Source: Asterias amurensis
Taxonomy: Eukaryota; Echinodermata; Asteroidea; Forcipulatida; Asteriidae
Assembly (NCBI RefSeq): GCF_032118995.1
Contig: NC_092660.1
Coordinates: 7,269,501-7,333,500, forward strand
DNA: 64,000 bases
Direction of reading: 5' to 3'
This document shows positions 3,301-50,115 of this stretch, in pieces. The notes under the pieces are model-generated. The model did not search any database and was not told the origin of the DNA. It saw only the letters and a list, made by a program, of their open reading frames with translations. The translations under genes were made by a program, and so were the position numbers. Position 1 is the first letter of the stretch, and every line of letters begins with the position of its first letter.

Positions 3301-3839
3301 AAAGATGCAGACAACAAAGGTTTATTATTCATGCATTGAAGGTCATTCATGCATTTGTTACTTCTTGCCTTGACAATGGCAATGCTCTTCTCTACAGTCT
3401 TCCTAACAACCAGATTTCCCGTCTTCAACGCCTTCAAAATACTGCTGCCCGCATTGTGACACTGTCTAAGAAATCCTGTTCCATCACCCCCATTCTGAAA
3501 CAACTACACTGGCTCCCTATCTCTCAACGAATCATCTTCAAGCTGATGCTCATTGTCCACAAAGCACTTAATGGCAAGGCTCCCCACTATATTTCTGAAC
3601 TTCTTCAAGTTTACACTCCATCAAGAAATCTTCGATAAAGTTCCATGCTTCTTCTCATTGAACCCAAGTCTCGACACTCATGGGGAGACAGGTCTATTTC
3701 TTCAGCTGCACCACGCATCTGGAACTCTCTACCACTTAATCTTAGATGTCTTTGTACCACAACATTCAAATCTCTTCTCAAAACTTATCTTATGTCACAG
3801 GTTTTCAAGGACTAATTTTGTTGTGTCTGTTTTTTTATT

Positions 3840-3934
<95 letters not shown>

Positions 3935-6900
3935 ATTATTATTCTTGTTATTGGACAATTTATAAATTCAAATTGAAACTTCAATTGTTTTTGTATGCCT
4001 TTCTTACCTTTCATTTTTTGCAGAAAGGTGGTCCACATCAGAAGTGATTCCACATGTCAGGTAGCTTAGGAGTGACAGGATATCTTCATTTCCAGTGTTT
4101 ATAAATCTGGTTGTAACTGCAAACAAGAACAAATCACTATGAATAAAATGAAGTGAAGAACATTTAAATATATTATGAAGACTAAAAATAAAAAACATTA
4201 AAATACGAGAAAGAATTAAACATCAGAAGAACACAGAAGAAAAAAAATGAGTATAAAAGCCCGGTTACACAGGCCCTGATAACAAGAACGAAAACGAGAC
4301 TGATAAAAATGCAGGCCCTCGATTGGTTGAAATGCTTCACGCAGAATACGCCCACGCTTATTCAACCAATCAAGGGCATGCATTTTAGAAGTTCTCGTTT
4401 TCGTTATCGGGGCTTGTGTGACCGGGCCAACCCTCCAATAAGTTTAGCAAATTTTTGAACAAATAATGCAAAGACAGCGGAACTGAAAAATGAAAGTAGG
4501 GCTCCCCAAGGAAAACAAGATTTGTACTAGAGCACTAAAGTTGAAGACACTGGACACCTTTGGTAATTGTCAAAAGCCAGTCTTTTCACTTGGCACAAAA
4601 TAACAAACCTGTGAAATATTTAACTCAATTGGTCATTGAAGTTGCAACATAATGATGGAAGAAAAAACAACCTTTGCACACCAAGTTGTGTGCTTTTAAA
4701 TGCTTGATTTCTAGACCTCAAGTGGAAATTTAGGGCCATTCTCTGAAATGTGAAACTTTTTTTGAAAAAAATGAAGTTGCTGATATTAACTTTTTTGTCG
4801 TTTTTTTTTTAATAAAGCACTACCTGAAGTTTCTTGAACAACATTTGTTTAAACTTTTTTTTAAGAGCGGCCATCCCTAATTTGCATAAATTAACATAAA
4901 GTTTATTTTAATTTTGAATTTTATTTTTTTTATCCCTAAACTGACTGGAGAATTATTGGCATTCAGTCTGTTATCAAATAAACATTTATCTGGTTTGCTG
5001 AGTGCCTTTGACTTGAATTAGATCAATTTTAAACCAAATGTGAATTTTTTCTATCAGAATTAGTCAGTAATTAACGAAGAATTTAGCGACTTTCCATGTC
5101 ACACACGTAACTGAAATATGGATGAAGTTTGTACTACAAATTAAGCACTGCTTTAATAATGTTCAGACTTTATAGTTTTGCCAGGCCTATCTGAATACAA
5201 AACGTAATGCACAATAAATTCACACACTTTTAAATAATGGCCTTAATTAATGTGTCACACACCTAACTAGTTGCATGTGTGACCTCTTTGTTACGTGTGT
5301 GACAGCATGCTAACATGCATGTCCCTCAATACACAAGGTATGCGCTGTGATGCACACCCAGGTGAATAAGCCGTGTGTCACTTTGGGCCACATTTTTTTA
5401 CCTACACTTGAGAGAGGGGTATAATAAAGGCCTAGCCAACATTTTTTGACAAAGGGGGAGGGACAAAACCAAAAGTGGATTTAAATTTTTCTCTCTTTCT
5501 CTCTGACATTGGTATTGCCATTGCGTTTGTGTACATTTTTGTTTGTAATGCTTGTTTTTTTTTAATTTAAATTGTTCCAAACAAAAATATAATGTTGTTT
5601 CAATACAGTTGTTTGAATCCATTTATATTATTCATTAATTTACACACAAATCATTTCATTGTTGATTTACTTGATTGTCGATTGCCTCAGTGCATTAAAG
5701 CATAGGGCGTCACACACGTAACGAACCATAATGTCACACACGTAACCCAACCTAATCACAGAAAATTATTATTTAAAATGTTTAGATATGATTGACCTTA
5801 AAATTGATTGTTTCATTATACTGACTGGGATTGAAAGTCCCCCCACAAGAAGTATGAGTCTTCCAGCAATTTCAAACTAACAGAGTTTTTAGAAAGAAAA
5901 TTTTGGTACAAAAACCTGCTTTTGTCTGACGTCACACATGTAACTAACCTTTATTTGACCTCTGACCCAAAATGAAAAAGTAAAACAATTTTATTTTTCG
6001 TTTTTAACTAGGGTCAGTTAATAAATGTTATTTGGTCTGACAAATACGCAGACACAAGAATTTTTTGTTGTAGTGAACTCTGCCAGGAGTTAATTTATTC
6101 CGTACTCTGAATTCAGTGGTAAAGCGCCAATTAAATTGCAATATTTATTCAAAATATTTCCCATCCAGTGATATCCACTCATAAAGAAGTATACCAATTC
6201 CAATTATAAATACACTTTGTGACCAATCCGCAAAGGTTCCCAATTCCACACATTGCTAACGTAAAATTCCAATCCGCAAAGGTTCCCACTTCTCAGCGAT
6301 TTGCTTAAGAAGGTACCAAACCATTTACAATTATTATGTAAATTCCTGCACTCATTGGCTGGAGAAATTCCGGGTCAATGAGGTTCCCACTTCCAGCGAG
6401 TTGCCAAGAAGGTACCAATTTAATTTACTTCTTTATATACAATCATATCACTTTATTACCACTTTCCTCACAGGCTTCCACGCCCATTAACTTGTTTATA
6501 CAGGAAAAGCCTAAACTTACTGCTTTAAATTAATAAAGTCTCCAAGTTGTAAGATTATTAGTCAACTCAATCTGTATTAGTGCTGGGCGAATAGTGAAAT
6601 TTTGTTATTCGGATACCGCTGGCCAACTATCCGAAATTAACCGGATATTCGAATAGTTTTTTTCGCCGCTAGAGGGCGCTATAAAAAAAATAAAAATAAA
6701 AAAATATTTAGAATTTTTTTTTTTTGTCGCTAGAGGGCGCTGTTCGTTCGTGAATGAGATCTTCTGGGCGGATTGATATTAGTTTTAGACAGTGTCACTC
6801 GGTTCATTCATAAAAATGACCGGATCTAATTTAAAGATGGCGATTTGCTTTTTCTTTTGATCGTGGATGACTCTACGTGAAGGAAAACTTTTGTAATCTT

Positions 6901-9900
6901 TGAACAAATTACGTCAGAAATGTCATTGTTTTGACTCTTCACGGAGGTGAGCATAGTTAAATACTTAATTTATGCTGTTTTATGCTGTCTTAATAGAAGT
7001 TTCATTAGGATTCAGACAAAACATTCATGTCAGTTGTCGCCCGACGTCCGCGGATATTCGGATATTAAAGAATATCCGGTTACTTGGTTGTAATTACAGA
7101 ACTATCCGGTTTATAAATAGCTATTCGCGCCCTATGCGGATATCCGGTTAAGAAAAAAAAGGCATTCGCGGTTACGGATAGGAAAACCTATTCGCCATTA
7201 ACCGGATATTCGAATTATTCGCCCAGGCCTAATCTGTATCACCTACATTGTAATACCCTGGCCCTTACGTTAAACCCCAGGGAGGGAGGGAGGGAATTTT
7301 GCGAAACTACAATCTATCTTAACTCCTTGGTGGCAGAATATTCAATGACGTTTCCAAGAAAGACGAGCACCCCAACCCCGAAATGCCTTGCTTTGGTTGG
7401 TTGAAAAGAACAATGGAAACACGTCTGAATGCACCCTGACAATCACATTTGCTTAGCCCGACTGCAAAAATGCCAAGTTCAGAGGCCAGCTATGTGTGAG
7501 ATTTTTCGAAACCTACCAGCATCTGAGCCTAAGCATCTGAACACACACCACACAACTTCGTGTGAAAAGGGTGTTTTTTCTTTCGTTATTATCTCGCAAC
7601 TTCGACGACCAATTGAGCTCAAATTTTCACAGGTTTGTTATATTATGCATACAGTAGGTTGAGATACAGCAAGTGAGAAGTGGTCTTTGACAATTACCAA
7701 CAGTGTCCAGTGTCTTTAACAAGTAGGTTTTTATGCTAACAATTATTTTGAGTAATTACCAAGAGTGTCCACTGCCTTAAGCGTGGTTGACAGCATTTCG
7801 ATTCAGCTAAGCACAAATCACTTTGAGCTAATAACTCTAGTCCAGCTATGTGTGAGATTTTTCGAAGCCTACCAGCATCTGAGCTTAAGCATCTGAACAC
7901 ACACAACTTCGTGTGAAAAGGGTGTTTTTCTTTCGTTATTATCTCGCAACTTCGACGACCAATTGAGCTCAAATTTTCACAGGTTTGTTATATTATGCAT
8001 ATGTTGAGATACAGCAAGTGAGAAGTGGTCTTTGACAATTACCAACAGTGTCCAGTGTCTTTAACAAGTAGGTTTTTATGCTAACAATTATTTTGAGTAA
8101 TTACCAATAGTGTCCACTGCCTTAAGCGTGGTTGACAGCATTTCCATTCAGCTAAGCACAAATCAGTTTGAGCTAATAACTCTAGTCCACAGTTTGGTTG
8201 ACTCACCTCTAGTCCAAACACTATTTTCAAGCATTCCATGATGTTTATATGAGGGCAAGCCTTCCTCATCATCAGACAGAACAGCAAGTTGTAGCATTCC
8301 AATGTCAATACTCTCATGCTGCTGTATCTGTAACATGGCACAAAATTCTTCACGACTGTGTTTACATGTAATAGATATTAAATTTGAATCAGTGATATTG
8401 GTGATATTTTACATAGTTTTTAACGATTCCTGTAAGTGGCGGCTTTCCGCTGTTGGATGTCAATAAATAAATAAAATAAAAAAAAAAAATAAAAAAAATA
8501 ATATTAATTTTGCTTTTTACCCATACACCGATGTGTGTTTATAGCACTGTATCCTCGGTACTTTCCAGAGTCCTGTAAAAAGTATCACAGGCATATTACT
8601 CGGGTTGGATTCGAACCCACGACCCTTGCTATTCTAGAGCAGTTTCTTACCAACTAGACTACCGAGATTGCCCGGTAGCTAGAGGCAGTTCGAATCCTAT
8701 GTTTTGGCAGAGGGTACAGCAACATACTTCAAATTTTCACAGGTTTGTTATTTTATGCATATGGCATCTTCTTTGAAATATGGACAATTTTACAACCTCA
8801 AATGTCATTTTTCAAATTTTTTTTTTGACCTTTTCAGTTATTTCAAATAATTGTATACATATTAAGGTTTACTAAAATGTTCATATAAGGATAGTTCAGT
8901 TAATTTTAATCGTGTAGTGTTCATTTTTAAAATGTAGAGTCTGCAGCAGTGAAACCTGTGGTTATATATATATTTAATTCAAAACTAGCTTAAAGATGCT
9001 ATGTCAGATTTTTGGCAGATTTTACCCCAAATTTTAGTTTAAAATTCAATAGGTATTTTGATGGGGGTCGAGAAAGTTACAAGCTTTCATTTAAGCCATT
9101 GCTCAAAAAAGTCCACCAATTATTAGTAGCAGTGAAATAAAGTGCTCAAAATTAGTTTTTGTCGGGATCCGACAATATATCACATGACCAATTCTTATGT
9201 GTTTTATAAGAATTGTTTAAATTTTTGTCATGGTTCCTGACCATTAAAAGAAAAAGTTAAACTTGCTTTCGTTAGAGCGGTTGATACTCTTTGAAATACC
9301 ATTCACTCAAAAAAATCTTTTTTTTAATTTTGGGGCCAAAACTCTGACATAGCATCTTAAAAGGCAGTGTGGACACTATTGGTAATTACTCAAAATAATT
9401 ATCATCATAAAACCTTTCTTGATTACGAGTAATGGGGAGAGGTTGATAGTATAAAACATTGTGAGAAACAGCTCCCTCTGAAGTGACGTAGTTTTCGAGA
9501 AAGAAGTAATTTTCCTCGAATTTGACTTCGAGACCTCAAGTTTAGAACTTGAGGTCTCGAAATCAAGCATCAGAAAGCACACAACTTTGTGTGACAAGGG
9601 TGTTTTTTCTTTCATTATTATTGCGCAACTTCTGCGACCGATTGAGCTCAAATTTTCACAGGTTTGTTATTTTATGCATATGTTGAGATGCACCAAGTGA
9701 GAAGACTGGTCTTTGACAATTACCAATAGTGTCCACTATCTTTTTAAGTAAATCACTAAGGAACATTCACTGTTTACTATAATGAGGCCCAACAGATTTG
9801 CTTTCAAATAAAATCAGTAAAAAATCAACAAAACACCAAACACAGAAAATATAAGCCTGACAGAGGAGGGCAAAAGGTTGACAGAAAAACAAAGCAAATA

Positions 9901-13000: not shown

Positions 13001-13981
13001 GCCAATAAGTAGGTGGCCCCCTGCTGCAGCATATCCCTTCCAAAAAGCATGACCAACGATGTGCAACAAATTGGAGAAAACAACACCCAATTGTTTGAGT
13101 ATTGTTATAATAGATGTTAAATTTGCATCGGGGATAAAGAATATTAATTTTGGTTTTTTGAGTATTGTTGTTGTAAACTTGTATCGTAGGAGGTCCTGTT
13201 TTCAAGGTGTCCCTAAAATCGTGGCAAATCTTTTACTTCTCTGTGCGTGATGTAATCAGTCCCTAGATAAAAAAAATTTGGTTTTATTTGCCAAAGAGTC
13301 TCTTCTCCCTTGACCAAAACTTAGAAACACGTAAGGCTCCACTGGTTATTTGCACTTGTAAATGCAAAAAGTTTGGTATTTTAGGCATTTCTACAAGGTA
13401 CAAAAATATGTCATAATGTTGAGGTCATTTAAAAAAAAGTTGCCCACCGAAAAAGTTTCATCAAACATTATTTCAATTCACAATTCACGAAGATCAAATC
13501 ATGTGACTAAACATTTTGCTGAGCATTCTGAAAAACCCCCACACAGGCTTAAACAAGCCATGTGCCTTATATTATTTTCTAATATTTTGTGAGATTTTTT
13601 TTTTTACCCTCATATCAATATTATTATAAATATTAAAATTTAAACATCGGCTTGGTGATTCAATTATCACTTTTTATATATACGCTTTATTATAAATATT
13701 ATGGGGAAAAAATATATGAAAAAAATTAAACAAAAATCAGATTTGAAAGCCAATAATTATTCACACTTTATTTAATTTTGTATTTGTTTTATTTTTTGCA
13801 AATTACCATGGTAATTTTTCAAATGTAATAAAAAAATATTTTGAATAAAATGAAGGCAACTGCTGGCTGTCATACACAGAGTCTCACAGAACACTTGTAG
13901 TCACTGCAGATGTTTCTTCCACGTATGGCTTCACCGGAAAACCATTTTCTTGTTTACATTGAAAATGGGAAACAAAATGGG
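13001..13981. other. AT-rich, no gene recognised
   Basis: Contains GATGTTAAATTTGCATC (13110), a short phrase shared with 35528, probably a repeat piece. Small ORFs at 13059, 12897-13205 (minus) and 13362-13592 show no domain. Around 13600-13860 the DNA is very AT-rich with TATTATAAATATTA-type words. Confidence 0.4.
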
Positions 13982-15348
13982 GGGCCAAAGCCAAAAGTGG
14001 TCATCCTGAGCTATAAATTTTCAAGTCTTTCTTTTGGGTGAAATAAGTATGTAGCTATGTAGAGTAATATCTAAAGTTACAGGATTAAAAAAAGAAAATG
14101 AGATAGTCTCCTATAATGCTAATTATGAAGTGATTTTAACGAGAAACGAGCGCTTAGAGTGTGACAGGACGGAATGACTAATTAAAACTATAATAACTTA
14201 ATTAACAGATTTATCAGTTTTTTTATTTTGTATATAGACTAGCTGGTCATGGAGCACATGTATCTAAACCAAATACTTTAAATAATTTTTTTAATTTATG
14301 CGAACATGCAAATCTTAAGTATCAATTCCATCCTGTCGCATTTTTTAATCTATTAATTAATATTCAAATGCTTAATTTTGTATTTATTTGTATGAATTCT
14401 TCCAAATTATCAATGACTAGTGTGTTTGACACTTTAAGCATATTTGCTTTCAATTAATTCCTCTAATTAACTTAATGAGGCAATCCGTAGTGTTCAAAAC
14501 AGGACAAAAACAAGTGCGACAGGATGGAAATAGGTGCGACAGGACGGAAAACAAGTGCGACAGGACAGAATTATTTAGTCAGTTTCCCATTTAATGTTTT
14601 GTTTTTATATGGTTATTTATACACTGGCTTAAAATATATTAAAATCATTTAATTAGACCCATTTTTATAATGGTTATAGTTTATTAAAACCATGTGAACG
14701 AAATTCCGTCCTGTCGCATGTATATCATAATAAATCCTCCAGTAATTGAAAGAAAGAAACATGCAAAAATTATTCTTTGTTTGAGTATATGAGGGTACAC
14801 TTGATAAAAAAAAAAAGTGTATTTAAGTGCTTTAAATTTGATAAAAATCTAAAAGCTAATTGAATGTTTCAAACACGTTTCTATCGATTTGTTTTCTATC
14901 GAATAAATTTGTGTTACTATGGTAACAAACTAAATACTGTAGCGTCGACCGTGGGTTGCGTTGTACACAGTTTAATGACACAATTGAGGTACAATTAACT
15001 GCCTTTTCTGTCCGTTTCTTTGGAGGTTTATTCACACACGACAAGTCATGAACTTACACGAAGCAGAAACCTAAGCCAGAGAGCGCCCTCTCCAGCGAGC
15101 AGACACGATCGGCTGGTCTGGGCCACAAGCGTTGCTCCGAAGGGGAGTCGTGCTGGCGCCCCCTACCGGTCGATCGGCACCGCCGCTACAATACTATTCA
15201 ATTTTTTTGGGAGCTTGCTTGGGTCAGTTGGTTCCTTGTTTACACACCATAAATTAATTTCTGTTTTTATAGTTCTATTATTAAATGTACTGAAAATACT
15301 GCATCAAATTCCGTCCTGTCACACAAACGATACTTTTGGCTTTGGCCC
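13982..15348. mobile_element. GGGC-ended DNA element with GCGACAGGACGGAA motif array
   Basis: Ends GGGCCAAAGCCAAAAGT and, inverted, GGGCCAAAGCCAAAAGT. TGGG lies on both sides (13978-13981, 15349-15352), a 4-bp target duplication. The word GYGACAGGAYGGAA, in both orientations, recurs near 14160, 14330, 14516, 14536, 14556, 14706 and 15310. 1367 bp. A GC-rich block at 15050-15190 stands out. No transposase seen, so probably non-autonomous. Confidence 0.75.
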
Positions 15349-15516
15349 TGGGACCAGTTGAAGTCATCGAAGATCGGTGTGTGGTGTGAAAATTTTAATA
15401 CCCATCAAGTTTTAATTTATGTCTGCATACTTCATATAAACAAATGAAGATAATTAGGGCATCGGTTGATATGATGGCATCATTATTTTTTTCCCCAATT
15501 CAAAGAAAAAGGCTTA

Positions 15517-25119: not shown

Positions 25120-26545
25120 GGGAATAGGGTTTTATCACAAGTTGAATGGCCATGCGGATCCTACTCGGGAATTTCTAGTGTCAAAGCTTTTGAAGGGTTG
25201 TAGCCATGATCGCAGGCATCAAGACAGCCGCTTACCCATTACAATTCCAATACTCAGGCACATTTTGCTTTCTCTCCCGCATGTCTGTTCATCTCAGTAT
25301 GATCAGTTGTTCCATGCTGCAATATTAGGGGCATTTTTTGGTTTCATGAGGGTGGGGGAGTTTGCGGTCGATTCCAATAATAGGGTTCAAGAATCGATTT
25401 TACGATTCTCTGATATATCATTTAGCTCACTGGGTGCTGGCTGTGGGTCGGTGCTTATTTCATTCCGTAGTAGTAAAAATAATCAGTCAGGCAGTCCGCA
25501 AGTCATTCGTTTGGCGTCGGCAAGGGATGCAGGCATATGTCCGGTAACAGCTTTACGGCAATATGTTGGGGTTCGTCCACAGGGCCCGGGGGTTTTGTTT
25601 TGTCATTACAGTGGCGCCCCCCTCACTCGATATCAGTTTAATGTCACTCTAAAGAGAGCACTCGCTTTTTGCGGGCTCGGGGAACAATGCATATGAGCTC
25701 ACTCCTTTCGGATTGGTGCAGCTACGGTAGCCTTGCTCAAGGCAGTCGCATTATTCGCTCCGAAAAGACGCTGCTGTAAACCCACCCGTATACCCTGTGC
25801 ATGGTGTGTGCGATCACACCGAATGACCCACCCGTATACACACTGTCACATCGTACGAATACTGTTCACACAAGTCATCGCACTCGTACCACTAACCGCA
25901 TGCGGAGGCCGTCAGGCCGACAGCCTTGTCGGGTCTGTATCTTCCCGTTTTAATGTGTTGTATTGAAAAAATTCCAATAGTGGACGAAATTGGGGGGGCT
26001 CTCGGATATGCTAGTATGCAGCCATGAATATGTATATCTTTCGTCAGACCTATCAGACAACACAGGATGTGAGGCAAATGAATTATTCATTTTGACGTCC
26101 AATCATGCACTTCCCTTATCACAACCTTTGGACCCTATTATGCTCGTGTGTGATGTAAACATGTCTCGTCTTTCGCGGGCATTATGGTAATGAGCTGACC
26201 GTGGGAACTCTTCGCTTATTATAGTAATGAGGTCAGTGGCTTCAACACAGACCCTACAAGGCTGTCGGCCTGACGGCCTCCGCATGCGGATAGTGTACAG
26301 GGGCATCGTGTCGTGCGATGTTACGCACAGTGAATACGGGTGGGTTTTTATACAGCGGCGGTCTTTTTTCGGAGTGAATAATTCGACTGCCTTGAGCAAG
26401 GCTACAGCTACGGTGGCTTTTGGGTTGGGGGTCCCCTTTCCAGTTATACTGCAGATGGGGCGTTGGCGGTCCGATGCTGCGCGGGCTTACATTAGACCAG
26501 TGGCATTGTGTGCTTTGCCAGGTACAAGCCTAGATGGCTAATTGT
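25120..26545 (+). pseudogene. Tyrosine recombinase part of Ngaro-type fossil, copy 1
   Basis: Contains the recognisable core of a tyrosine recombinase (phage-integrase fold): PITIPILRHILLSLP, then GFMRVGEFAV with the first catalytic Arg, VLFCHYSGAPLTRYQFN, the HSFR box and a MGRWRSD...AYIRP end carrying the Tyr. In YR retroelements this enzyme integrates the circular DNA copy in place of a DDE integrase. Interrupted by the 677-bp insertion at 25728-26404. Fossil. Confidence 0.75.
25728..26404. mobile_element. Fold-back DNA element with 9-bp target duplication
   Basis: Ends TAGCCTTGCTCAAGGCAGTC on both sides (inverted), continuing as long arms (CTCCGAAAA, ACCCACCCGTAT, GCATGCGGAGGCCGTCAGGC). 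CAGCTACGG lies directly before (25719-25727) and after (26405-26413). The uninterrupted site is seen in copy 2 at 49980. 677 bp, no transposase. Length of duplication and long arms suggest a Mutator-like origin. Confidence 0.85.
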
Positions 26546-35700: not shown

Positions 35701-38700
35701 CACATAGCACTCATCATATTTGGCTAATACTTGGCTTCTTCTTCCCACGTAACACTCATCAAATTTACTTCCACGTAACACTCATCAAATTTGGCCAATA
35801 CTGGGCTTCTTCTTCCCACATAACACTCATCAAATTTGGCCAGTACTTGGCTTCTTCTTCCCACGTAACACTCATCAGATATAGCCAATACTTGGCTTCT
35901 TCTTCCCACATACACTCATCAAATTTGGCCAGTACTTGGCTTCTTCTTCCCACGTAACACTCATCAAATTTGGCCAATACTGGGCTTCTTCTTCCCACAT
36001 AACACTCATCAAATTTGGCCAGTACTTGGCTTCTTCTTCCCACGTAACACTCATCAGATATAGCCAATACTTGGCTTCTTCTTCCCACATACACTCATCA
36101 AATTTGGCCAGTACTTGGCTTCTTCTTCCCACGTAACACTCATCAAATTTGGCCAGTACTTGGCTTCTTCTTCCCATGAACAGGTGACTTCAACCGTTAC
36201 TGGGCACCACGCCCGAAATAATTAATTGGCAAACAATTGCCACACCACAACAAAATTGGCCATTACCTGGCTTCTTCTACACCATTATCCACGCGACACA
36301 ACCAACCATCAATGGGCACCACGCCCATACATATTAAATGCCACAATTACCACCTTGGGCAACACACCTAAAATATTGAATTGGCACCTGGCCAAACATT
36401 TATCTGTGTGCACACCTGACTCCAACCATGCGGGCACACAGGCAATGAAACCATTATTGAGAATAGTCATACCTGAAATTTATACAATGAGTTAAGTTAT
36501 GCAATTCCACCTTGGCACAATGTGGTCAGAACTAGCCCCTGTGGAAACTTCAGAGTGCTAACACAACGTATTGTTACAATATTGGATATCTATACTATAG
36601 TAGCGCTTAAATCGCATGGGCGCTGCCATTGTTGTTTGGGCGCCGCCATGTTGTTTTCACGTCAAGTGGTGCCCGCACCCTGCTAAAATGATGCGTCCTG
36701 GGGTAAATTTCGGGGTACCCGTGGGTTGGGGGCATGTGTTGTTTGTGACGTCACAGTCAAAGCGCGAGCGTGTAGTGACCTTTGGGATTGAGGGTTCCTT
36801 TGTGATGTCACAGTCACAGCGCGAGCGTCCAGTAATTCTGTTGGTGGGAAATTAATAACATTTTGTGAACAGAAAAACAAATTGCCCGTTCACGTTGAAA
36901 GGCAGTGACTAACTGTAAACCCGAACAACATTTGTGTATACAGAGGACTGTGACTGCCCGCGAAAACATAATTACCTAAGTTGCTAAACATTAATGCACC
37001 TGAACTGCAACCCCTCATGGTAAATACGTATCCCCTAGCTGGCATGAATTTATATGTCATGGGCAGCATACATACATGAAGCATGCGAGTAGCCACATAA
37101 ACAAGTACGCCCTGTGTATAAAGCATTTTATCTTTGATTGATAAAATGTGGTAATCTGTAGTTAGTCAACTTACCTTTTTCTTTTGTGATTAAGAAGTAC
37201 TTGAGGGTAGAAGGAGACAGTCCATGCAGCAAAATAAATCCATCCGACAACAATGATAACAACATTAAGGGCAAGGCTGTCAACCACCTGTATCCGTACA
37301 AACACACTAGACAAACTGGAAAATAAAATAAAATATTTTATTTAAAAGGACACATTGCATCGGGCGAGTTGATCTTTTGAAAAGCGTTTGAAACTGTCTG
37401 TAATGAAATGCATTATGGTTAGATAGATAATTTAAAATTAGAATATAATTATCCACAAAAACATGCCTCGAAATTGCATGGTTTTCCTTTTACGCCGCAA
37501 ACTATCATGGTCAGCCATTTTATGGAGTCAAGTGTCCCTAAATAATAGTAGCAGTAACACAATCTTATCAAGCCAAATTTCTAATAACAAATTACTCAAG
37601 GCGTTAGTGAAAAGAAGTACAAAATGCTTTCTGCAAATAACACCAATACCACTGGGTGGAAAAAAGCAATGGAAAAGTGTCTTGCTCAAGGACACAAGTG
37701 TCACGATCGGGATTGGAACCCACTCTCTACTGAACAGAAACACAAGAGCATGAGTTCGGTGCTGTTATCCGATCAGCCTTGACATCGTGTTGACAGACAA
37801 ACCAATTAATTAGATTTTGATACAAACATGTAGCAGCTGCCTGTGGCTGCTACATGTATATACATTACAATGTGTTTAATGCACGGAACTTACTTTCCAA
37901 GTTGTGTAGTTGTAGAGTTCAAAGTGATTATAGCCTTTCCTACTTGTGAGCTTGAATTAGTGAGAACGTTTACTCTGACTTTAGTAGATGTGTCATTTGG
38001 TGGTAACTCGACCTGTGATAAAAACAAATTTGCATCAAAACCATGAGGTAAGCTTATAAAAAGCAAAAGCAGGCGACTGAAAAGTAAAACCATTTGTCTA
38101 CTCTGAGGAAAGTAACATCACAAAAACAGACTAGGCAGTTATTGACATCTGCTTTGTAACCCATGACTTGGCCATGTCTTTTCATTCAAGTAAATAGTAT
38201 GCTCCACTTCACATTTAACCTTCATGGCAGGGGACAGTGTTGTAACCAAGTCTTTTTTTTTTCAAGTCAAGTCAATTCGCAATTGCTCAAGTCAAGTTGC
38301 AAGTCGGAATTGCTCAAGTCAAGTCACAAGTCATTTTTGCTCAAGTCAAGTCTCAAGTCAAATTTTTGCAAGTCACGAAGTCACATAATGTCCCAAAATA
38401 AGTCCACTCTCATTAAGTTGTGACAAACCTCAAGTAAAATCAAATCTTTTTGTCGACTACCTTTGTTTCGCATGAACACAACATATACACCTTATTTGTT
38501 TTTGTTGTGATGTCATTTTGTGATGGGACACGTTGCCTTGGATGGGCGAGTTGGTCTATGAAAAGTGTTTGAAACCGCTTGTTATGAAATGCATATGGGC
38601 TATTCCATGGTCAGTCGCATTACACTTTTCTGTGTCATTTCTTGATCTTGGTGCTAGTAGTTCTATGTGAGATATTATTTCCACTAAGTTTATAGGCTGA

Positions 38701-40783
38701 TTAGTACTTGACACCCAAGGCTTTGAAGTGATGATATTAGAAATGTTGTGGGCTTTGTGGACTTACATACATTTTAACATTATTGTCCCTGAAAATTCAA
38801 AGTTTGGGTTATTGTTAAAAAGTGGTCTGTGAATTTAAAATGGCCTGGTTGGTTATCACAGTTTCCTAAATGCAAAAAAAACAATTTGTTTTGTGATCTA
38901 AAAGTGTATTACAACACAAACAACTTCTTGATCACCCATCTCCTTGACTTTGCCTGGATAAATTTCACTGCATGTTACACCACACACCACTGACCATGCA
39001 TTGCTACCCTTGCATTGCTACCCTGATTTGTAAGGCAGCATTTTGTATTAATCATGTTTCTTCTTTCTGAAGGAAAATGGTGGCAAAGAGGACATCAGCT
39101 TTTTGCTTTTGTTTGCTCTTTTTGGAGATTTTTTTCTGTGCTCTTCTTGAAACCCTTGTATTTCAACATAACATTCTGCTTTTTCAGCCTAGGCAGTGGT
39201 ACAACATGTATACATGTCCACAATTTGTGGAGAGTAAATTAGTTCCATTACTTCACTTTTCTACTCAAAATTCTCAGAAATGTTGCTTTTCTTTATTTTA
39301 TTTCATGTGTTAACATTAAGACTCTGTACAAATGATGAAACTAGACGTTACAGATTGGAATGGCACATGTACAACACGTGTTATAGTTTACAGCATGTGC
39401 TTTGGAAAAATGCATTGTGGGTAGGGCATGAGTGGCATCTGCAGAGCCCCAGAGCTATTAATTCACGTAATAAGTCATAACCAAGATATCCAGCTTTGCT
39501 GACCTCTTAGCGTCCTCCTCTTGAAAAAAGATTGCATTGCATTGCATGGTCAGTCACATTACCGGTTAGTCACATTACACTTTTTGATGACTCGTTATTA
39601 AAATGCACAATTTAGAATGTTGATTTCTTTACTCATTTCAGACTTGGAAATAAGGGTAGAAGCATATTTTGAATTGCCATGAAGATAGTCAGTGGATTTT
39701 TCTTGCAATTGAAATAACTTCATCTCTCGGTCAGTCGCATTACACCCTGTTGAAGCTCCCACAAGTACACTCACATATTGCTTAAATGAGAAACATGAAT
39801 TAAGATTCATTCTGGATTTTAAAAAGTTGTACCTGCTGCTAATCACAAATATTAAAGTTTTGCTGGAAGAATCCATGTGGGGGGAAAATATTTAACTTTG
39901 AAGAAACCACCTTAATGTTCTCACTTTTTAGGGTTCGTTCACAGCTTGTGCAAACATGAGCTGAATTTGTACAAAATGGTACAGAATGTGTTAACAAAGT
40001 TATTGTCTGTTTTCTTTCATATGTTAGCTATAACTTTTAAGTGGAAAGAAAGTTGTGACACAAATTATATTTTTTGGTGTCATGTCCATGTTTGCTTGGA
40101 ATTGCCCATAATGGTTAGAAAGATGTTTTAAAAGTAGAATATAATGATCCACAAAAATGCCTTGAAATTGGATGGTTCCCCTTTTATTTTGCGAGCTAAC
40201 ATGGTCAGCCATTTTGTGGAGTCACAAAATTGACTCCACAAAATGGCATTCCATGGTTAGTTCACAACGAAAGAGGTAAACAAAGCAATTTTGGAAGCAT
40301 TTTCGTGTTGATCTTCATGTTCTACTTTTAAAACATCTCTATGCATTTTAAAACAAACGGTTTTCAAACGTTTTCATGGACAAAGGACAAACTCGTCTGA
40401 TCCAAGGCAACTAACTTACAATTGAGGTCAAGAGTCTGTCCCAAGTTAGTGTGTTCTGTTACATTAGCTGCGGCATAATATAATGAAGTTATTTTTGTAC
40501 TAATAAAATGATTTGCATATTATGTCAAAGTACATACTTGTTCTTCAGGAGCTGCAATAAAATAGTTTGTACTGTAAAGGTTGACGAGTGCCGTTTCATT
40601 CAAGTTAATGTTTGACCTCAGAAAGAATTCATCTGGTGTGCCATGTTCAATAGTCATTTCTTGAGGTGATACAGTCAGGTTAACACTATTGGCAGCTAAC
40701 GACGGCACACATAAGCTCACTGTCAATGTGACCATACAGACAACTGAAAAGCGCAGTGGGATGAATCTGTCTTTCTTTTCCAT
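29505..40783 (-). CDS. CTNS: Cystinosin, lysosomal cystine/H+ symporter
   Basis: Eight coding exons (40783-40538, 38012-37894, 37315-37175, 35492-35393, 33575-33456, 32631-32452, 31534-31417, 29701-29505) have consensus splice sites and matching phases and give 406 residues (human: 367). Order: signal peptide, N-glycosylated lumenal domain (NLT, NET, NDT, NSS, NST sites), then seven membrane spans. Two PQ-loop motifs are clear: [14 protein letters not shown] near residue 157 and [19 protein letters not shown] near residue 299. The proton/cystine-coupling aspartates are present in [10 protein letters not shown] and LLDFTGGSF (about 220 and 323). [14 protein letters not shown] near the C-terminus is almost identical to human cystinosin. 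The family exports cystine from lysosomes using the proton gradient. The C-terminal tail is longer than in mammals and lacks a plain GYDQL lysosomal signal. I chose the ATG at 40783 because it begins a good signal peptide; a 5' UTR exon may lie upstream. Confidence 0.95.
29820..30370. repeat. ~130-bp tandem repeat in CTNS intron 7
   Basis: Three to four units, each with GAGATATGGTCCCACTTCCG, GTTGACCCGGAAGTA(G/A)AGGT, GGGGTCAC and AAGGAGTCTATAACT at roughly 130-bp spacing (29925, 30055, 30185, then a decayed one). The ORFs at 29883-30359 are products of the repeat. Confidence 0.85.
31040..31376. mobile_element. Kolobok/T2-like MITE piece in CTNS intron 7
   Basis: From AACAGCTCCCTCTGAAGTTA to AATAGTGTCCAGTGTCTTTA, i.e. 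the inner part and the right end of the family; the left end is missing or replaced. Confidence 0.75.
31417..31534 (-). CDS. CTNS: CTNS exon 7
   Basis: Acceptor TTCCTACAG, donor AACA/GTAAGT. Encodes [20 protein letters not shown] then [19 protein letters not shown]: the second half of the second PQ-loop and the following membrane span with the conserved Asp. Confidence 0.95.
31739..32120. mobile_element. Full-length Kolobok/T2-like MITE in CTNS intron 6
   Basis: TTAA at both ends; AAGGCACTGTACATGTTTGG left, inverted AAGGGAAGGTACATGTTTGG right. The end sequence TACATGTTTGG differs from the usual GGACACTATTGG, so this is a subfamily. 374 bp between the TTAA copies. Confidence 0.8.
32452..32631 (-). 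CDS. CTNS: CTNS exon 6
   Basis: Acceptor TTTCTTAG, donor CCTCAG/GTAAGT, exactly 60 codons. RGGQRVS matches human cystinosin; two membrane spans follow, then [16 protein letters not shown], the start of the second PQ-loop. Confidence 0.95.
33239..33400. mobile_element. Palindromic MITE in CTNS intron 5
   Basis: GAAACCACGGCTTCGGCTCC on the left and, inverted, GAAACCACAGCTTCGGCTTT on the right, with further mirrored TGGCTCAGGCT/AGCCTGAATCC. It ends about 55 bases from the exon 5 donor. Confidence 0.75.
33456..33575 (-). CDS. CTNS: CTNS exon 5
   Basis: Acceptor TTTATTTTGTAG, donor TATGAT/GTGAGT, exactly 40 codons. [20 protein letters not shown] corresponds to human [20 protein letters not shown], with the functional Asp in ND. 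Confidence 0.95.
33712..34990. repeat. Dispersed deuterostome-type repeat, split by a fold-back element
   Basis: 33712-33842 holds TGTATAGCACTTTATCACAG, CCCGAGGGGCATCTCAAAGC; 34795-34990 holds AAAGCAATGGTTAAGTGTCT, TGCTCAGGGACACAAGTGTC and GGGGTTCGAACCC. These belong to one widespread repeat, whose two halves are separated by the 952-bp element at 33843-34794. The tail resembles the copy at 37640-37770. The GGTTCGAACCC is B-box-like, but no A box fits. Confidence 0.65.
33843..34794. mobile_element. 952-bp fold-back element (TAGCCCACC family), 9-bp duplication
   Basis: Ends TAGCCCACCTTGTTGAGCTG on both sides (inverted), arms more than 300 bp long and nearly identical (each codes the same 65-residue ORF by mirror), and a CG-rich centre (GGCGGCGCCCAAGAA). 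Flanks ATACAGCCT (33834-33842) and GTACAGCCT (34795-34803) are a 9-bp duplication with one mismatch. Mutator-like by duplication length and arm length; no transposase. A 255-bp relative is at 52014-52268. Confidence 0.85.
35393..35492 (-). CDS. CTNS: CTNS exon 4
   Basis: Acceptor TTTTCTTTCAG, donor GTTAAG/GTATGT. One base completes Ser, then [20 protein letters not shown] and [13 protein letters not shown], parallel to human [20 protein letters not shown]. Confidence 0.95.
35580..35680. mobile_element. Palindromic MITE fragment
   Basis: CTAGTGGTTTAAACCCGCCG then GGCCTGGTTCTTTATAATTT and its inverted copy around GAGACGAAGTCGAGG. Same family as the complete palindrome at 42931-43026; the right end is replaced by the minisatellite. 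Confidence 0.7.
35680..36175. repeat. ~45-bp minisatellite in CTNS intron 3
   Basis: Eleven or so units built on TTGGCTTCTTCTTCCCACGT followed by AACACTCATCAAATTTGGCC. Mostly 45 bp, with a few 44-bp and shorter ones, so ORFs on the minus strand ([15 protein letters not shown] repeats) are spurious. The phrase decays further to about 36380. Confidence 0.9.
36380..37174. other. CTNS intron 3, remainder
   Basis: Contains a short direct repeat (GTGACGTCACAGTCAAAGCG at 36747 and GTGATGTCACAGTCACAGCG at 36802, both followed by CGAGCGT). No gene. Confidence 0.45.
37175..37315 (-). CDS. CTNS: CTNS exon 3
   Basis: Acceptor ATTTTCCAG, donor AAAAG/GTAAGT. Encodes the end of the lumenal domain and first membrane span: [20 protein letters not shown] then QVLLNHKRK, the first PQ-loop. 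Confidence 0.95.
37347..37531. mobile_element. Left half of TTAA/AGGAACAC-family palindrome
   Basis: AAAGGACACATTGCATCGGG, GAAAAGCGTTTGAAACTG, ATGCCTCGAAATTGCATGG and CAGCCATTTTATGGAGTC follow the order of the complete copy at 57915-58304. The mirrored half is missing. Confidence 0.75.
37640..37790. repeat. Dispersed repeat fragment
   Basis: CACTGGGTGGAAAAAAGCAA, GTGTCTTGCTCAAGGACACA and GATTGGAACCCA match the right part of the repeat at 34860-34950. Confidence 0.65.
37894..38012 (-). CDS. CTNS: CTNS exon 2
   Basis: Acceptor TTTTTATCACAG, donor GGAAA/GTAAGT, ends with two bases of a split codon. Encodes lumenal [20 protein letters not shown] then [19 protein letters not shown] with three N-glycosylation sites; human [20 protein letters not shown] is the counterpart. 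Confidence 0.92.
38245..38375. repeat. AAGTC-based minisatellite in CTNS intron 1
   Basis: CTCAAGTCAAGTCACAAGTC-like units of about 30 bp, four or five copies, separated by AATTGCT or ATTTTTGCT. Confidence 0.85.
38515..40425. mobile_element. TTAA/AGGAACAC-family palindrome, interrupted
   Basis: The left end (GGGACACGTTGCCTTGGATG, then GAAATGCATATGG) breaks at 38596 and resumes at 40108 with AATGGTTAGAAAGATGTTTT. It continues through the palindrome centre (TGTGGAGTCACAAAATTGAC) to the right end ATCCAAGGCAACTAAC at about 40418. The 1.5 kb in between is a separate element. Confidence 0.75.
38597..40107. mobile_element. GGGC-ended DNA element with GGTCAGTCRCATTACAC motif array
   Basis: Ends GGGCTATTCCATGG and, inverted, GGGCAATTCCAAGC. 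Flanks ATAT and ATAA suggest a 4-bp duplication with one mismatch. The word GGTCAGTC(G/A)CATTACAC recurs inside, near 38620, 39550, 39565 and 39730. 1511 bp, no transposase domain; ORFs at 39054-39876 show nothing recognisable. Confidence 0.65.
40538..40783 (-). CDS. CTNS: CTNS exon 1 (first coding exon)
   Basis: ATG at 40783, donor [32 protein letters not shown] then [13 protein letters not shown] is a classic signal peptide (basic start, hydrophobic core, small residues at cleavage), followed by lumenal [19 protein letters not shown]. The frame stays open upstream to 40834, but a plausible acceptor (TTCTATTTTAG) lies at about 40811, which suggests a separate 5' UTR exon. Confidence 0.92.
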
Positions 40784-45929: not shown

Positions 45930-47446
45930 TTGCATTACGTAGGACCTAGGGTGCAACGGGATTCTAATTGCTTGCCATCCGCTCATCAGCGTCCACAGGT
46001 TGTGCGTGAGAAATTGGCGAAAGAGATTAGCCTAGGCCGCGTTGCTGGTCCTTTTTTGTCCCGACCGCTACCACAGCTGCAGTGTTCGCCGATTGGGCTT
46101 GTACCAAAGAGTGAGCCAAATACATTTCGTCTTATTCACCATTTATCCTTTCCTACCGGTGAGTCTATTAATGATTTCATTGAGCAGGAAAAGTGTGTTG
46201 TGCATTATGCCTCATTTGATCATGCAGTCAACTTGGTTATGCAGGCTGGTGATGATGGCGCTTGGTTGGCGAAATCGGATATTAAATCTGCTTTTAGGTT
46301 ACTTCCAGTGCACCCTAGGGACTATCAATTGTTAGGTTTCATGTTTGATGGATTGTATTATTATGATAAGTGCTTGCCTATGGGCTGTTCAATTTCATGT
46401 TCGCTGTTTGAGATGTTTAGCACGTTTTTAGACTTTCGTATTCAGCAAGTTACGGGTTCCTCTTTAATAACTCATTACTTAGATGATTTTTTGTTTGTTG
46501 GCACATCAGTGGAGGCATGTGCGCATTCATTGACAGCATTTACTGCCATCTGTCATGGGCTAGGTGTGCCCATTGCGCAAGAAAAGACTCAAGGGCCAGT
46601 GCAGGTTTTTAAGGGTCTAAAAAGTCAGATAAGACGCGTCTTATCCGCAGGAAAATACGGTACTTATTTGGGCCTAGAAATCGACGCAGTAGTTGGGCAG
46701 ATTCGCGTGCCAGCACCTAAAGTGTTAGCACTGTGTAGTAAAATCCAAGAGGCTTTGAGTAAGCGAGAATTAACTTTGGTGGAAGTGCAATCTTTGATTG
46801 GATCTTTGAATTTTGTATGTAAAGCAATTTCCCTTTGTCGGGCATTTTGCAGGCGACTCATTGCTTTGACTCAAGGTTTAAGGAAACCGCATCACAGGGT
46901 GACACTTTCTCATGGAGCTAGGCTTGATTTATTGATGTGGCTGGAGTTCTTGGCCCACTTTAATGGGATTTCACCATTTTTAGATTGTAATTGGGACAAT
47001 GCCTTGAATTGTTTATGGATGCTGCTGCATCTGTGGGTTTTGGTGGGTGTTTTCAAGGCAAGTGGTTTCAAGGACGTTGGCAACAGTGTATTATTGCTGA
47101 CCCTCCATCAATTGCATTTTTTGATTTTTTTCCAGTTGTAGTGGCGGTGTTGTGCTGGGGGCCTTTGTTGGCAAGCCGTCAGGTGCTTTTTCGAACAGAT
47201 AACTTGGCGGTTGTGCATATCATCAATGGTCAGACTTCACGGTGTACACGCATCATGCATTTAGTGCGTCTGTTTGTGTTACATTGCCTTCGTTTTCGCA
47301 TTGTATTTAGGGACAAGCACATTTCGGGCTTCACTAATGTTTTGGCGGATGCTTTGTCTCGTTTCCAGATGGAGCGTTTGCGAGCAGCGGCTGCTGACGC
47401 AGATGCGAACATGACCCCCCTTCCGGAACTTCCCATGATATGGTAG
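45930..47446 (+). pseudogene. Reverse transcriptase and RNase H part of the Ngaro-type fossil
   Basis: RT blocks are clear: SPIGLVPKSEPNTFRLIHHL, WLAKSDIKSAFRLLPVHP with a catalytic Asp, DKCLPMGCSISCSLFE, THYLDDFLFVG (the YxDD core) and a LGLEI block. An RNase H domain follows with LFMDAAASVGFGGCF, FRTDNLAVV and DALSRF. The YLDD core and the way RNase H ends in ADALSR are typical of DIRS/Ngaro elements. Fossil. Confidence 0.8.
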
Positions 47447-50115
47447 CAGGTGAGGTTTCACGGCTATTGTCATTGGCTTTTTCCCAGAATTCGCCCCGAA
47501 CTTATTCCACTGGTTGGAATGCTTTCTGTCAGTTTAGGGGTCAAATGTCAGGCGGTGTTATCATGCCAGTTGCTCCTTCAAGTGTTAGGGATTTCATTGC
47601 TTGGCTTTCCCTCAGGGGCGATTCCGCGGTAACACGCGTTACGCTTTTGAGGGTCCTTCATCATTCTCCATTCTCTGGCTGCAAGACTACTTTGATTTAG
47701 GTGTTCATCTTTTGTATTTTAAAACCTGAATATCTAGGCTAGATCCCCATGTTCACAAAAGTGAGAGATCAACTGGTTTAGCTGAGAGAGCTAAAATCGG
47801 TAACACGCGTTACGCTGAATGGAAAGACCCAAAAAATACTGAACTTCATTTCAACTTTGTCCTAAAACTAACCAGTCTACTACAAAAAAAAATCTATTGT
47901 CATCAAGTACTAAGCTAAGGTTTATTATACCAGAATAATAACAATAGTCCAAGTGTAACTTTTTTAGTAAATTGCAAAATAGTCGGTAACACGCGTTACG
48001 GTAACACACGTTACAATTTTTCCAAGCTACATGTTTATTATGTTATTTCAGTTGCTGAGTTACAAATTCTCAAAAAATATCAACAAATATCAGTTGCGCA
48101 TCATATTTAAAGAGCAAAAAATTAAATAGACCATTTTCTTAACGTTTTGCTCTACATATCACAAAATTTAAAGTAACACGCGTTACGGTAACACGTGTTA
48201 CAGTTTGTCTTGCTACATTATTGATGTTATTTCAATTGTTGAGTTACAGTTTCTCAAATTTATCAACCAATATCAGTTGCACATCATAATTGAAGAGCAA
48301 AACAGTAGCTATAGACCTTTTTATTTATTTATTTTTTTAGTTGCTCTACATTGCCCCAAAATTTGTAGTGCATGCGATTGTTTACTATCACGGGTTCTCC
48401 AGTTTCCTAATAATATGATTCCTAAAATAAAATGTTTTGTCATCTTTAGGACTTGCCAACTTCTAATTCCTTCAAGCAGGGGGCAACCCTAAAACACTGA
48501 AGTCATTTTTATCACTTACTTGCATTACTTCACCACGAAAATTATCCCAATTAAAAATAACTCCCCACGCTTAGAATCATTAATTTGACCCCCCAATTCC
48601 ATCGCAGGTCCTTTGCTATGGGATGTTGAAAAGTAATTCCACCTCATTCACGTTGTGCTTGCCTACCAGGCCATGGAACATGGTAGGAATATTTTAGTTT
48701 TTTACTGTGTGCTGTGCCCATCTGACCCTTGTATACAGTGTATTGGGCTTGGTAACACGTGTTACATTGGTAGCACGCGTTACATGGTAGCACGCGTTAC
48801 ATGGTAACACGCGTTACACTGTTCAGAGGCTCATTGTGAAGCGGTGGTTAAGAATTCATCTAAGTTTTTACATGAGCCCTTATTAGTAGGAGGAAAATTA
48901 AAAGTTGCAGCATTTGAAACCAGGTTGTTTAGTAATTATATTTAAAAGGGTGTGTTTGGTAACACGCGTTACGCTCTCTGAGAGTACCTAAAACCTAGTG
49001 TTCACACAAGTGTACATGAGTTGTATTGAAATTTTACATATTTTTTTTGAAAGAATACTGCCCATACTTGCCCTCATTTATACTTTTTTAAAGAAAATTG
49101 ATACCGACTATAAAAATAGGTCAAATTGTTAAAACCATAAAAAACATTACTTTTTTTCCCACCAAAGTGCACTATTGGAAGGAAAAAAAATTCCACAGTT
49201 AACAATATCCAAACAGAATATAAAAAAATCTCCTGACACTTGGACATGTTTGGAACGATATAAAGATAAAAATTCAATTCTGTGAGCAATTTCATTTTTC
49301 TAAGAAAATTCCACCTTTTCATGGAATCGCCCATAGAGGTTTAGCCCCATCAACAATAGCCACATATGTAGTGGAAATAGGGTTTTATCACAAGTTGAAT
49401 GGCCATGCGGATCCTACTCGGGAATTTCTAGTGTCAAAGCTTTTGGAGGGTTGTAGGCGTGATCGCAAGCATCAAGACAGCCGCTTACCCATTACAATTC
49501 CAATACTCAGGCACATTTTGCTTTCTCTCCCGCATGTCTGTTCATCTCAGTATGAACAGTTGTTGTTCCATGCTGCAATGTTAGGGGCATTTTTTGGTTT
49601 CATGAGGGTGGGGGAGTTTGCGGTCGATTCCAATAATAGGGTTCAAGAATCGATTTTACGATTCTCTGATATATCATTTAGCTCACTGGGTGCTGGCTGT
49701 GGGTCGGTGCTTATTTCATTCCGTAGTAGTAAAAATAATCAGTCAGGCAATCCGCAAGTCATTCGTTTGGCGTCGGCAAGGGATGCAGGCATACATGTAT
49801 GTCCGGTAACAGCTTTACGGCAATATGTTGGGGTTCGTCCACAGGGCCCGGGGGTTTTGTTTTGTCATTACAGTGGCGCCCCCCTCACTCGATATCAGTT
49901 TAATGTCACTCTAAAGAGAGCACTCGCTTTTTGCGGGCTCGGGGAACAATGCATATGAGCTCACTCCTTTCGGATTGGTGCAGCTACAGTGGCTTTTGGG
50001 TTGGGGGTCCCCTTTCCAGTTATACTGCAGATGGGGCGTTGGCGGTCCGATGCTGCGCGGGCTTACATTAGACCAGTGGCATTGTGTGCTTTGCCAGGTA
50101 TAAGCCTAGATGGCT
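47440..50115 (+). pseudogene. Tyrosine recombinase part of the Ngaro-type fossil, interrupted
   Basis: The N-terminal part (SQNSPRTYSTGWNAFCQF, PSSVRDFIAWLSLRG) and the C-terminal part (YVVEIGFYHKLNGHADPTRE, PITIPILRHILLSLP, GFMRVGEFAV, HSFR box, MGRWRSD) are separated by the 1.7-kb DNA element at 47616-49332. Fossil; same enzyme as in copy 1. Confidence 0.75.
47616..49332. mobile_element. GGGC-ended DNA element with GTAACACGCGTTAC motif array
   Basis: Ends GGGCGATTCCGCGG and, inverted, GGGCGATTCCATGA, inserted in the recombinase part of the retroelement. The 14-bp perfect palindrome GTAACACGCGTTAC or a one-base variant occurs about eleven times: near 47628, 47800, 47982, 47999, 48173, 48189, 48750, 48767-48815 (three) and 48958. 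Some are directly adjacent. 1717 bp, no transposase. Flanks TCAG and ATAG give at best a partial 4-bp duplication. Confidence 0.75.

Follow-up and report, generated by a model that had tools for sequence, protein, structure and literature searches.

The element at 13982-15348 of the window (the whole 64,000-nucleotide stretch of Asterias amurensis DNA analysed here) repeats one short word many times and carries no gene. The initial annotation had grouped it with two other elements of the window, each with GGGC-type ends and a short word of its own, as one unnamed superfamily, in which the word may be the binding site of the transposase. The sequence identifies the element as a non-autonomous cut-and-paste DNA transposon, the window member of what is here called family I. 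Its terminal inverted repeats, GGGCCAAAGCCAAAAGT at 13982-13998 (forward) and its counterpart at 15332-15348 (reverse), are 17 nt long and 100% complementary, and 4-bp TGGG target duplications lie at 13978-13981 and 15349-15352; the ends, position and duplication first reported for it are therefore correct. A related repeat in locus L012 represents the empty site, with a single TGGG at the point where TGGG-element-TGGG stands in the window.

At up to two mismatches the repeated word, GYGACAGGACGGAA, occurs seven times in the window, on both strands and always inside 13982-15348, compared with a mean of 0.30 in shuffled windows, of which 0/100 reached seven. The word scan placed these copies at 14161-14174 (GTGACAGGACGGAA, forward), 14326-14339 (reverse, one mismatch), in a forward triple at 14516-14529 (one mismatch), 14536-14549 (GCGACAGGACGGAA) and 14557-14570 (one mismatch), and on the reverse strand at 14704-14717 and 15309-15322. 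Comparison with the spacing described below identifies the copy at 14704-14717 as the surviving word of a 'pair' position, and the one at 15309-15322, beside the right end, as the word at position 27 from the end. Family I elements are ~1.1 kb long, and the window copy measures 1367 bp because a 251-bp repeat foreign to the family (GTAGCG...CGCTAC, with AATACT on either side) is nested at 14939-15189. Many other genomic copies of this nested repeat exist, 86-98% identical; an Rfam scan of 14900-15230 and a tRNA scan of 13900-15450 gave no match. A further short element of the window, at 6578-7231, has inverted ends TAGTGCTGGGCGAATA/TATTCGCCCAGGCCTA and ATCTGTAT on either side (8 bp, hAT-like by length).

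In the genome (491.5 Mb in 23 contigs searched), GYGACAGGACGGAA has 74 exact copies and the reversed word one. Assigned by coordinates, 65 of the 74 lie in family I loci and five in the family A elements introduced below; the other four, at C4:3185909, C8:7005638, C9:12847809 and C12:12580676, are outside recognised elements. Half of the two-ended family I copies (6/12) span 1101-1147 bp, the remainder being longer or shorter, and the mean mutual identity of eight copies is 94.2%. Exact 4-bp duplications flank six of the 12 (TGGG, ATAT, AGAT, TGCT, TTTA and ATGG), while four show a duplication with one mismatch, judged by eye, and two show none; this count leaves out L018, whose apparent start has four mismatches, and scores L008 and L010 as misses. 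Several candidates for autonomous elements were rejected. L009 has exact ends and a length of 2977 bp, and its 255-aa frame looks, by eye, like a piece of a nested retrotransposon. L010, L013, L014, L015, L058 and L059 were put down to insertions, microsatellites or fragments. Sequences such as GGGCCAACGCCAAAAGC, which come close to the end of family I, occur at 119 places versus 39 for the reversed pattern and, among the 100 listed, look single-sided.

The second family is represented in the window by an internally deleted element of 1511 bp at 38597-40107 (forward strand, word GGTYAGTCGCATTAC, ends GGGCTATTCCATGG / GGGCAATTCCAAGC), and the third by an element at 47616-49332 (forward strand, word GGTAACACGCGTTAC, ends GGGCGATTCCGCGG / GGGCGATTCCATGA), beside which a frame at 47300-47615 looks by eye like part of a retroelement polyprotein. 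The word arrays reported for both were recovered: GGTCAGTCRCATTACAC has four matches in the window versus 0.25 expected, and GTAACACGCGTTAC, which is near-palindromic, has 26 hits, counted per strand, versus 3.4 expected, 4/26 coming from a separate array at 5.1-5.7 kb. A fourth word array of the window, (AT)GTCACACACGTAAC and variants in about six copies on both strands with TTAGCGACTTTCCATG ahead (5096-5944), resembles the words of II and III. The words had been described as unrelated, which does not apply to these two families: their left ends give an ungapped alignment (GGGCGATTCCATGGTTAGTCGCATTAC / GGGCGATTCCGCGGTAACACGCGTTAC), and intermediates exist elsewhere in the genome. A looser II/III end pattern is found at 101 genomic places (control 0), including the end types GGGCAATTCCACGGTAACTCGCGTTAC and GGGCAATTCCACGGTTACTCACGTTAC, and because of such intermediates the words of II, III and the further end types make up one graded series.

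Both families have many genomic copies. Family II ends at up to one mismatch number 120 on the left and 119 on the right (controls 0). Pairing, which drew on 100 of the 120 left and 100 of the 119 right ends, left 43 of those left ends unpaired and gave 57 pairs, 30 of 0.26-0.67 kb and 27 of 1.5-3.4 kb (18 of the latter at 1.98-2.09 kb); none of the 57, at 259-3444 bp, is a long autonomous copy. The range of 1.4-1.7 kb initially given for all three elements is right for the window copies (1367 bp, 1511 bp and 47616-49332), but not for family I without its nested insert or for family II with its two size classes. Target duplications were scanned at 16 loci of each family, with both ends at up to four mismatches in 9/16 loci of II and 12/16 of III. 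An exact 4-bp duplication was present in 7/9 and 8/12 of these, respectively, L030 and L034 of family II being one duplicated site that contributes two of the seven. The duplications are mostly AT-rich (ATAA, ATAT, ATAG, TTGT). The window copies of II (ATAT/ATAA) and III (TCAG/ATAG) have no exact duplication, and the length is known from other copies. Duplication length had been proposed as a test of the common origin, and together with the 6/12 of family I the two-ended loci give the same answer, 4 bp, for all three families. Near a truncated family III end, L059 also contains a foldback-like long inverted repeat with arms of ~857 bp (3679-4534 and 5622-6476), which is present in L020 as well.

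A decayed transposase with the motif string DFSENY...WSDG..QFKS...SHGKG.VDG.GG accompanies these ends. In L060 a decayed reading frame lies beside a right end of the II/III kind, and its 152-aa C-terminal piece has 16 matches at 12 genomic loci (E <= 0.001). All 12 are at such elements: six have GGGTCAGATCCAAAAC ends, four have GGGCAATTCCACGG ends and two are in family III copies, the latter two matches being weak (E 7e-4 and 1e-3). Four of the loci adjoin all four GGGCAATTCCACGGTAACTCGCGTTAC-type right ends among 100 of the 101 places with the looser pattern. In addition, of the 16 family III loci retrieved, 13 are matched at E <= 0.01 by one or other piece of the transposase, copies of one family not being independent. 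The window copy of family III is among those with decayed pieces, at 48359-48758 on the reverse strand (..SDGHSTQ.., ..WNYFSTSHSKG.., ..FRGEVMQVSDKNDFSV.. and IVNNRMHYKF), with E 0.006-0.007 in a small local database and values down to 2.5e-6 for other copies. The statement that the elements lack genes consequently needs qualifying for III; inside families I and II no coding remnant was found.

The catalytic region is present in L061, the C3 locus, where it reads VDFSENYS / WSDGCAAQFKSK / SHHGKGPVDGIGG and is followed by the C-terminal region VGDWVIVEYDSQMYPGEV...YWKWP; in this gene a partial internal duplication accompanies at least one frameshift and one stop. A candidate acidic triad, its residues assigned by eye, is formed by VDFSENY / WSDG / SHGKG.VDG.GG in L061; III shares the last two of these motifs, and L012, which holds a remnant of the same transposase, the last one. 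No Pfam or NCBIfam profile reached its family cut-off in scans of the transposase pieces. Other open frames of the genome, of 865 aa (C15:11807429), 527 aa (C13:7381173) and 455 aa (C14:7112366), are 27-31% identical to the transposase. The catalytic piece found no relatives in plasmid records and viral contigs, and the C-terminal piece had 12 matches in phage records, all at E 0.3 or worse; a PDB match at E 0.032, to a 'Kinase domain protein', was taken as chance. None of the copies read combines an intact transposase with two ends and a target duplication. L060, with 7987 bp between facing ends, was rejected as a single complete element as its flanks have no matching duplication, as was L012 475-7587, where the flanks of the facing ends do not match. 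The latter segment of 7.1 kb runs between GGGCCATTCC and GGGCATTTCC ends and contains a nested family I copy; its words differ by end (CGTCACTCGCATTTC left, GGTTAGTTACGTTAC right). The window (25726-26404) and L060 (6720-7467) share, at 88% identity, an element of 0.7 kb whose inverted ends are weak; in L060 it separates the transposase remnant from the right end.

Family I is tied to this transposase by family A, the elements with GGGTCAGATCCAAAACY ends at 6 of the 12 transposase loci. By coordinates, 5/6 have facing ends 2650-2679 bp apart, and C3 shows one end; a genome search with the catalytic core gave no match in the 2.65-kb copies, which are known by coordinates. The 3' flank of the C3 gene (L062) contains four words like those of family I (mean of shuffles 0.01, with 0/200 reaching four), and other family A copies, on C2 (three times) and C6, have GTGACAGGACGGAA exactly. 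Over 42 bp, the C3 end GGGTCAGATCCAAAACTACCTCTTTGTGACGCGACGGAA and the family I end GGGCCAAAGCCAAAAGTATCGTTTGTGTGACAGGACGGAA align with a score of 34, compared with 24 for the best of 2000 shuffles. Global alignment of the last 405 bp gave 271/366 identical positions between family I and C3 (z 9.6). When the words and the last 20 bp were cut out, z was 1.8 and 38/1000 shuffles were as good, or z 0.9 and 181/1000 when the single copy L002 was compared with C3. As the interior without words and end is not clearly alignable, the link between I and C3 rests on ends, word and spacing.

The spacing of the words was the most striking feature. Counted from the element end beyond the transposase stop (the gene-3' end), six lineages with different words have a word at 13-27, another at ~175-195 and a tandem pair near 365-391. 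The positions are 27, 195, 391 and 407 in family I (L002); 26, 175, 374 and 390 in C3; 14, 192, 379 and 394 in L060 (that at 192 with two mismatches); 13, 184, 365 and 380 at the right end of L012 (up to three mismatches to a word taken from L012 itself); 13, 192, 378 and 393 in family II (L030); and 14, 192, 378 and 393 in family III (L040). The offset from the first word to the pair is 364-365 bp in L002, L030, L040 and L060 and varies in other copies, and tandem words are spaced 15-21 bp. All ten family I copies compared have the word at 27, nine have the second at 192-199 and eight have one or two at 383-413; the window copy is without the second site. Of 14 family II loci with a left end, 11 place the second word at 191-192 and begin the pair at 364-380; L029 (198/385) and L031 (110/297) are off the pattern, and the deleted window copy keeps the first word only. 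For family III, 12 of 13 rows have the second word at 185-192 and 12 a pair starting at 367-385, with that of L048 at 340; this family has an extra pair near 556-579. The left end of L012 has words at 13 and 188, and the pair near 380 is absent.

Between the words, the DNA of I/C3 and that of II/III cannot be aligned (z 0-1.6), L060 versus I/C3 reaches at most z 3.2, and the GGGCNATTCC types are partly alignable among themselves (z up to 4.9). By a crude uniform model, which ignores shared ancestry and multiple looks, the chance of the second and third positions of family I agreeing this well is ~0.001, or 0.007 with a looser margin. At the far end, by arithmetic on the positions, L002 of family I carries two single words, at 181 and 349, plus a triple at 539-580; L030 of family II has a single word at 363 and a triple at 528-566, and L040 of family III a single word at 358 and five words at 523-593. 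One word lies at 356 in a C6 copy of the GGGTCAGATCC group. Word orientation near this end in family I is unlike that in II and III.

Taken together, families I, II and III likely constitute one superfamily, mobilised in trans by related forms of one DDE/D-type transposase that is probably of the Sola type, with the words acting as its binding sites. The superfamily claimed by the initial annotation is supported by 4-bp duplications in each family and by a transposase lineage at 12/12 matching loci. Different transposases, which the annotation had set as the counter-finding, were not what the families revealed: III holds pieces of the transposase, and I shares word, end layout and spacing with elements that bear it. 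For family II the agreement is partial, its ends, word and spacing being on the plan of III and its interior yielding no coding remnant.

The shared spacing strengthens the reading of the words as transposase-binding sites, and a mechanism can be proposed on this basis. The DNA-binding part of the transposase would bind the word of its own family, and the ladder would set several bound units in a fixed geometry from which the catalytic domains could reach the terminal GGGC and cut. Loading may be asymmetric, one terminal repeat containing or adjoining a word and the other end having clusters further in. The complex would bring the GGG ends close to each other, cut them and join them to the target, where staggered strand transfer would leave the 4-bp duplication. 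Between families, the DNA-binding part and the word would have changed together while the spacing stayed.

The words might instead be sites for a host factor, or promoter or enhancer sites of the transposase gene, kept for transcription. Their location at both ends, in subterminal DNA, would suit such a role, as would a spacing of ~180 bp, close to the nucleosome repeat length. A host factor would be expected to use one word for all families, whereas each family has its own. The words also persist in gene-less copies that have multiplied (family I and the short family II copies L055 and L057), and in II, III, L060 and L012 the terminal repeat abuts the first word or overlaps with it. We consider a transcriptional or host role unlikely.

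Less likely still is that II, III and the GGGCNATTCC types are one superfamily and family I a separate one that is similar by convergence, GGG ends and 4-bp duplications being common and word arrays arising often. Five of the 11 outermost bases of I are different in II/III, the DNA between words is unalignable (I versus II/III, z 0.5-1.2), and the interior of family I, free of coding remnants, fits this possibility as well. Family A argues against it, however: of the 74 places in the genome where the family I word occurs exactly, five are in family A, whose end, as measured on the C3 copy, is alignable with that of family I and whose transposase lineage is that of III and L060. The word spacing of family I, moreover, agrees with that of the other lineages. 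That the words are functionless by-products of slippage or local duplication is very improbable: although tandem copies 15-21 bp apart and a 186-bp duplication seen by eye in the family III consensus look like local copying, and although the word is no better kept than the rest of the element among eight family I copies (0.934 versus 0.951), lineages with different words and unalignable DNA between them have a like ladder, and family I words are found on both strands.

Returning to the words as transposase-binding sites, the superfamily may work as a ruler, in which word and DNA-binding part change together while the build of the transpososome, possibly with nucleosome-length DNA wrapped, fixes the geometry (a word at the end, one ~180 bp in and a pair ~365 bp from the first); we propose this tentatively, at somewhat less than even odds. 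Fixed spacing combined with changing words amounts to a natural set of word variants of one DNA-protein machine, and specificity and geometry could therefore be tested apart. Gene-less transposons are usually filed by the letters of their ends. The Repbase rule for this asks for the same duplication length and the first 11 bp with at most one mismatch (PMC4455052); it places II with III (0-1 mismatch) and separates I from II/III (five mismatches) and from family A (three). The rule serves to file elements without genes and leaves room for distant kinship; going by 11 bases, it would separate families that transposase, duplication length and spacing bring together. A 4-bp duplication, a word at the end, one at ~190 and a pair at ~380 offer a practical signature for finding further families.

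Among known systems, the CACTA/EnSpm elements (maize Spm-like) have arrays of a short family-specific subterminal word that is bound by an element-coded protein. Family-specific subterminal arrays are likewise present here, the ends being GGGC, whereas the CMCT clade is described as having mostly 5'-CA..TG-3' ends and 2-5 bp duplications (PMC12730594). Since 2-4 bp is the length given for CMC (PMC4482050), duplication length alone does not bar this clade. At one end of the hAT element Hermes, several units of the transposase make contact with subterminal repeats (PMC10368747), but hAT duplications are 5-8 bp (PMC4482050), compared with 4 bp, other ends and a sparse ladder in ~180-bp steps here. 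Galileo, of the P superfamily, has several THAP-domain binding sites in its long terminal repeats (PMC3688188), similar to the multiple words seen here, and P duplications are 7-8 bp (PMC5199201) versus our 4 bp; no THAP domain was matched in the scanned pieces, which may lack the N-terminus. PIF/Harbinger and the other PHIS groups appear disfavoured: the duplications of the groups are 3 bp or other (3 bp for Harbinger, Pangu and Nuwa, PMC4482050), although lengths of 0-4 bp are allowed when PHIS is taken together (PMC10045372), and no Pfam domain of that kind was matched in the four pieces of the L061 gene, which are decayed. Ginger duplications are 4-5 bp (PMC4482050). That length fits, but the Pfam scans gave no integrase (rve) match. 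Academ elements make duplications of 3-4 bp. A value of 3 bp is given for them in PMC5199201.

The closest named group is probably Sola (Sola1, Sola2 and Sola3 in Repbase), a name that rests on the 4-bp duplication and the likely DDD triad, and the same two features make it doubtful that the superfamily is an unnamed one. We know of no word ladder in Sola. Among the papers found by literature searches, as judged by titles and the beginnings of abstracts, none describes a fixed ladder of this kind, which is weak evidence of absence. Sola elements, set beside ours by description, are reported to have 4-bp duplications, a DDD transposase, lengths of mostly 2-9 kb and very variable ends (PMC10741241), and Sola2 of slime moulds has AT-rich duplications of the form AWWT, with ATAT, AAAT and ATTT as instances (PMC3627910). 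Several family I duplications (TGGG, TGCT, ATGG) are not AT-rich and differ in this from Sola2, whereas the ATAA, ATAT and ATAG of families II and III are like those of Sola2, and the third acid of the candidate triad looks like D (SHGKG.VDG.GG), as in a DDD transposase.
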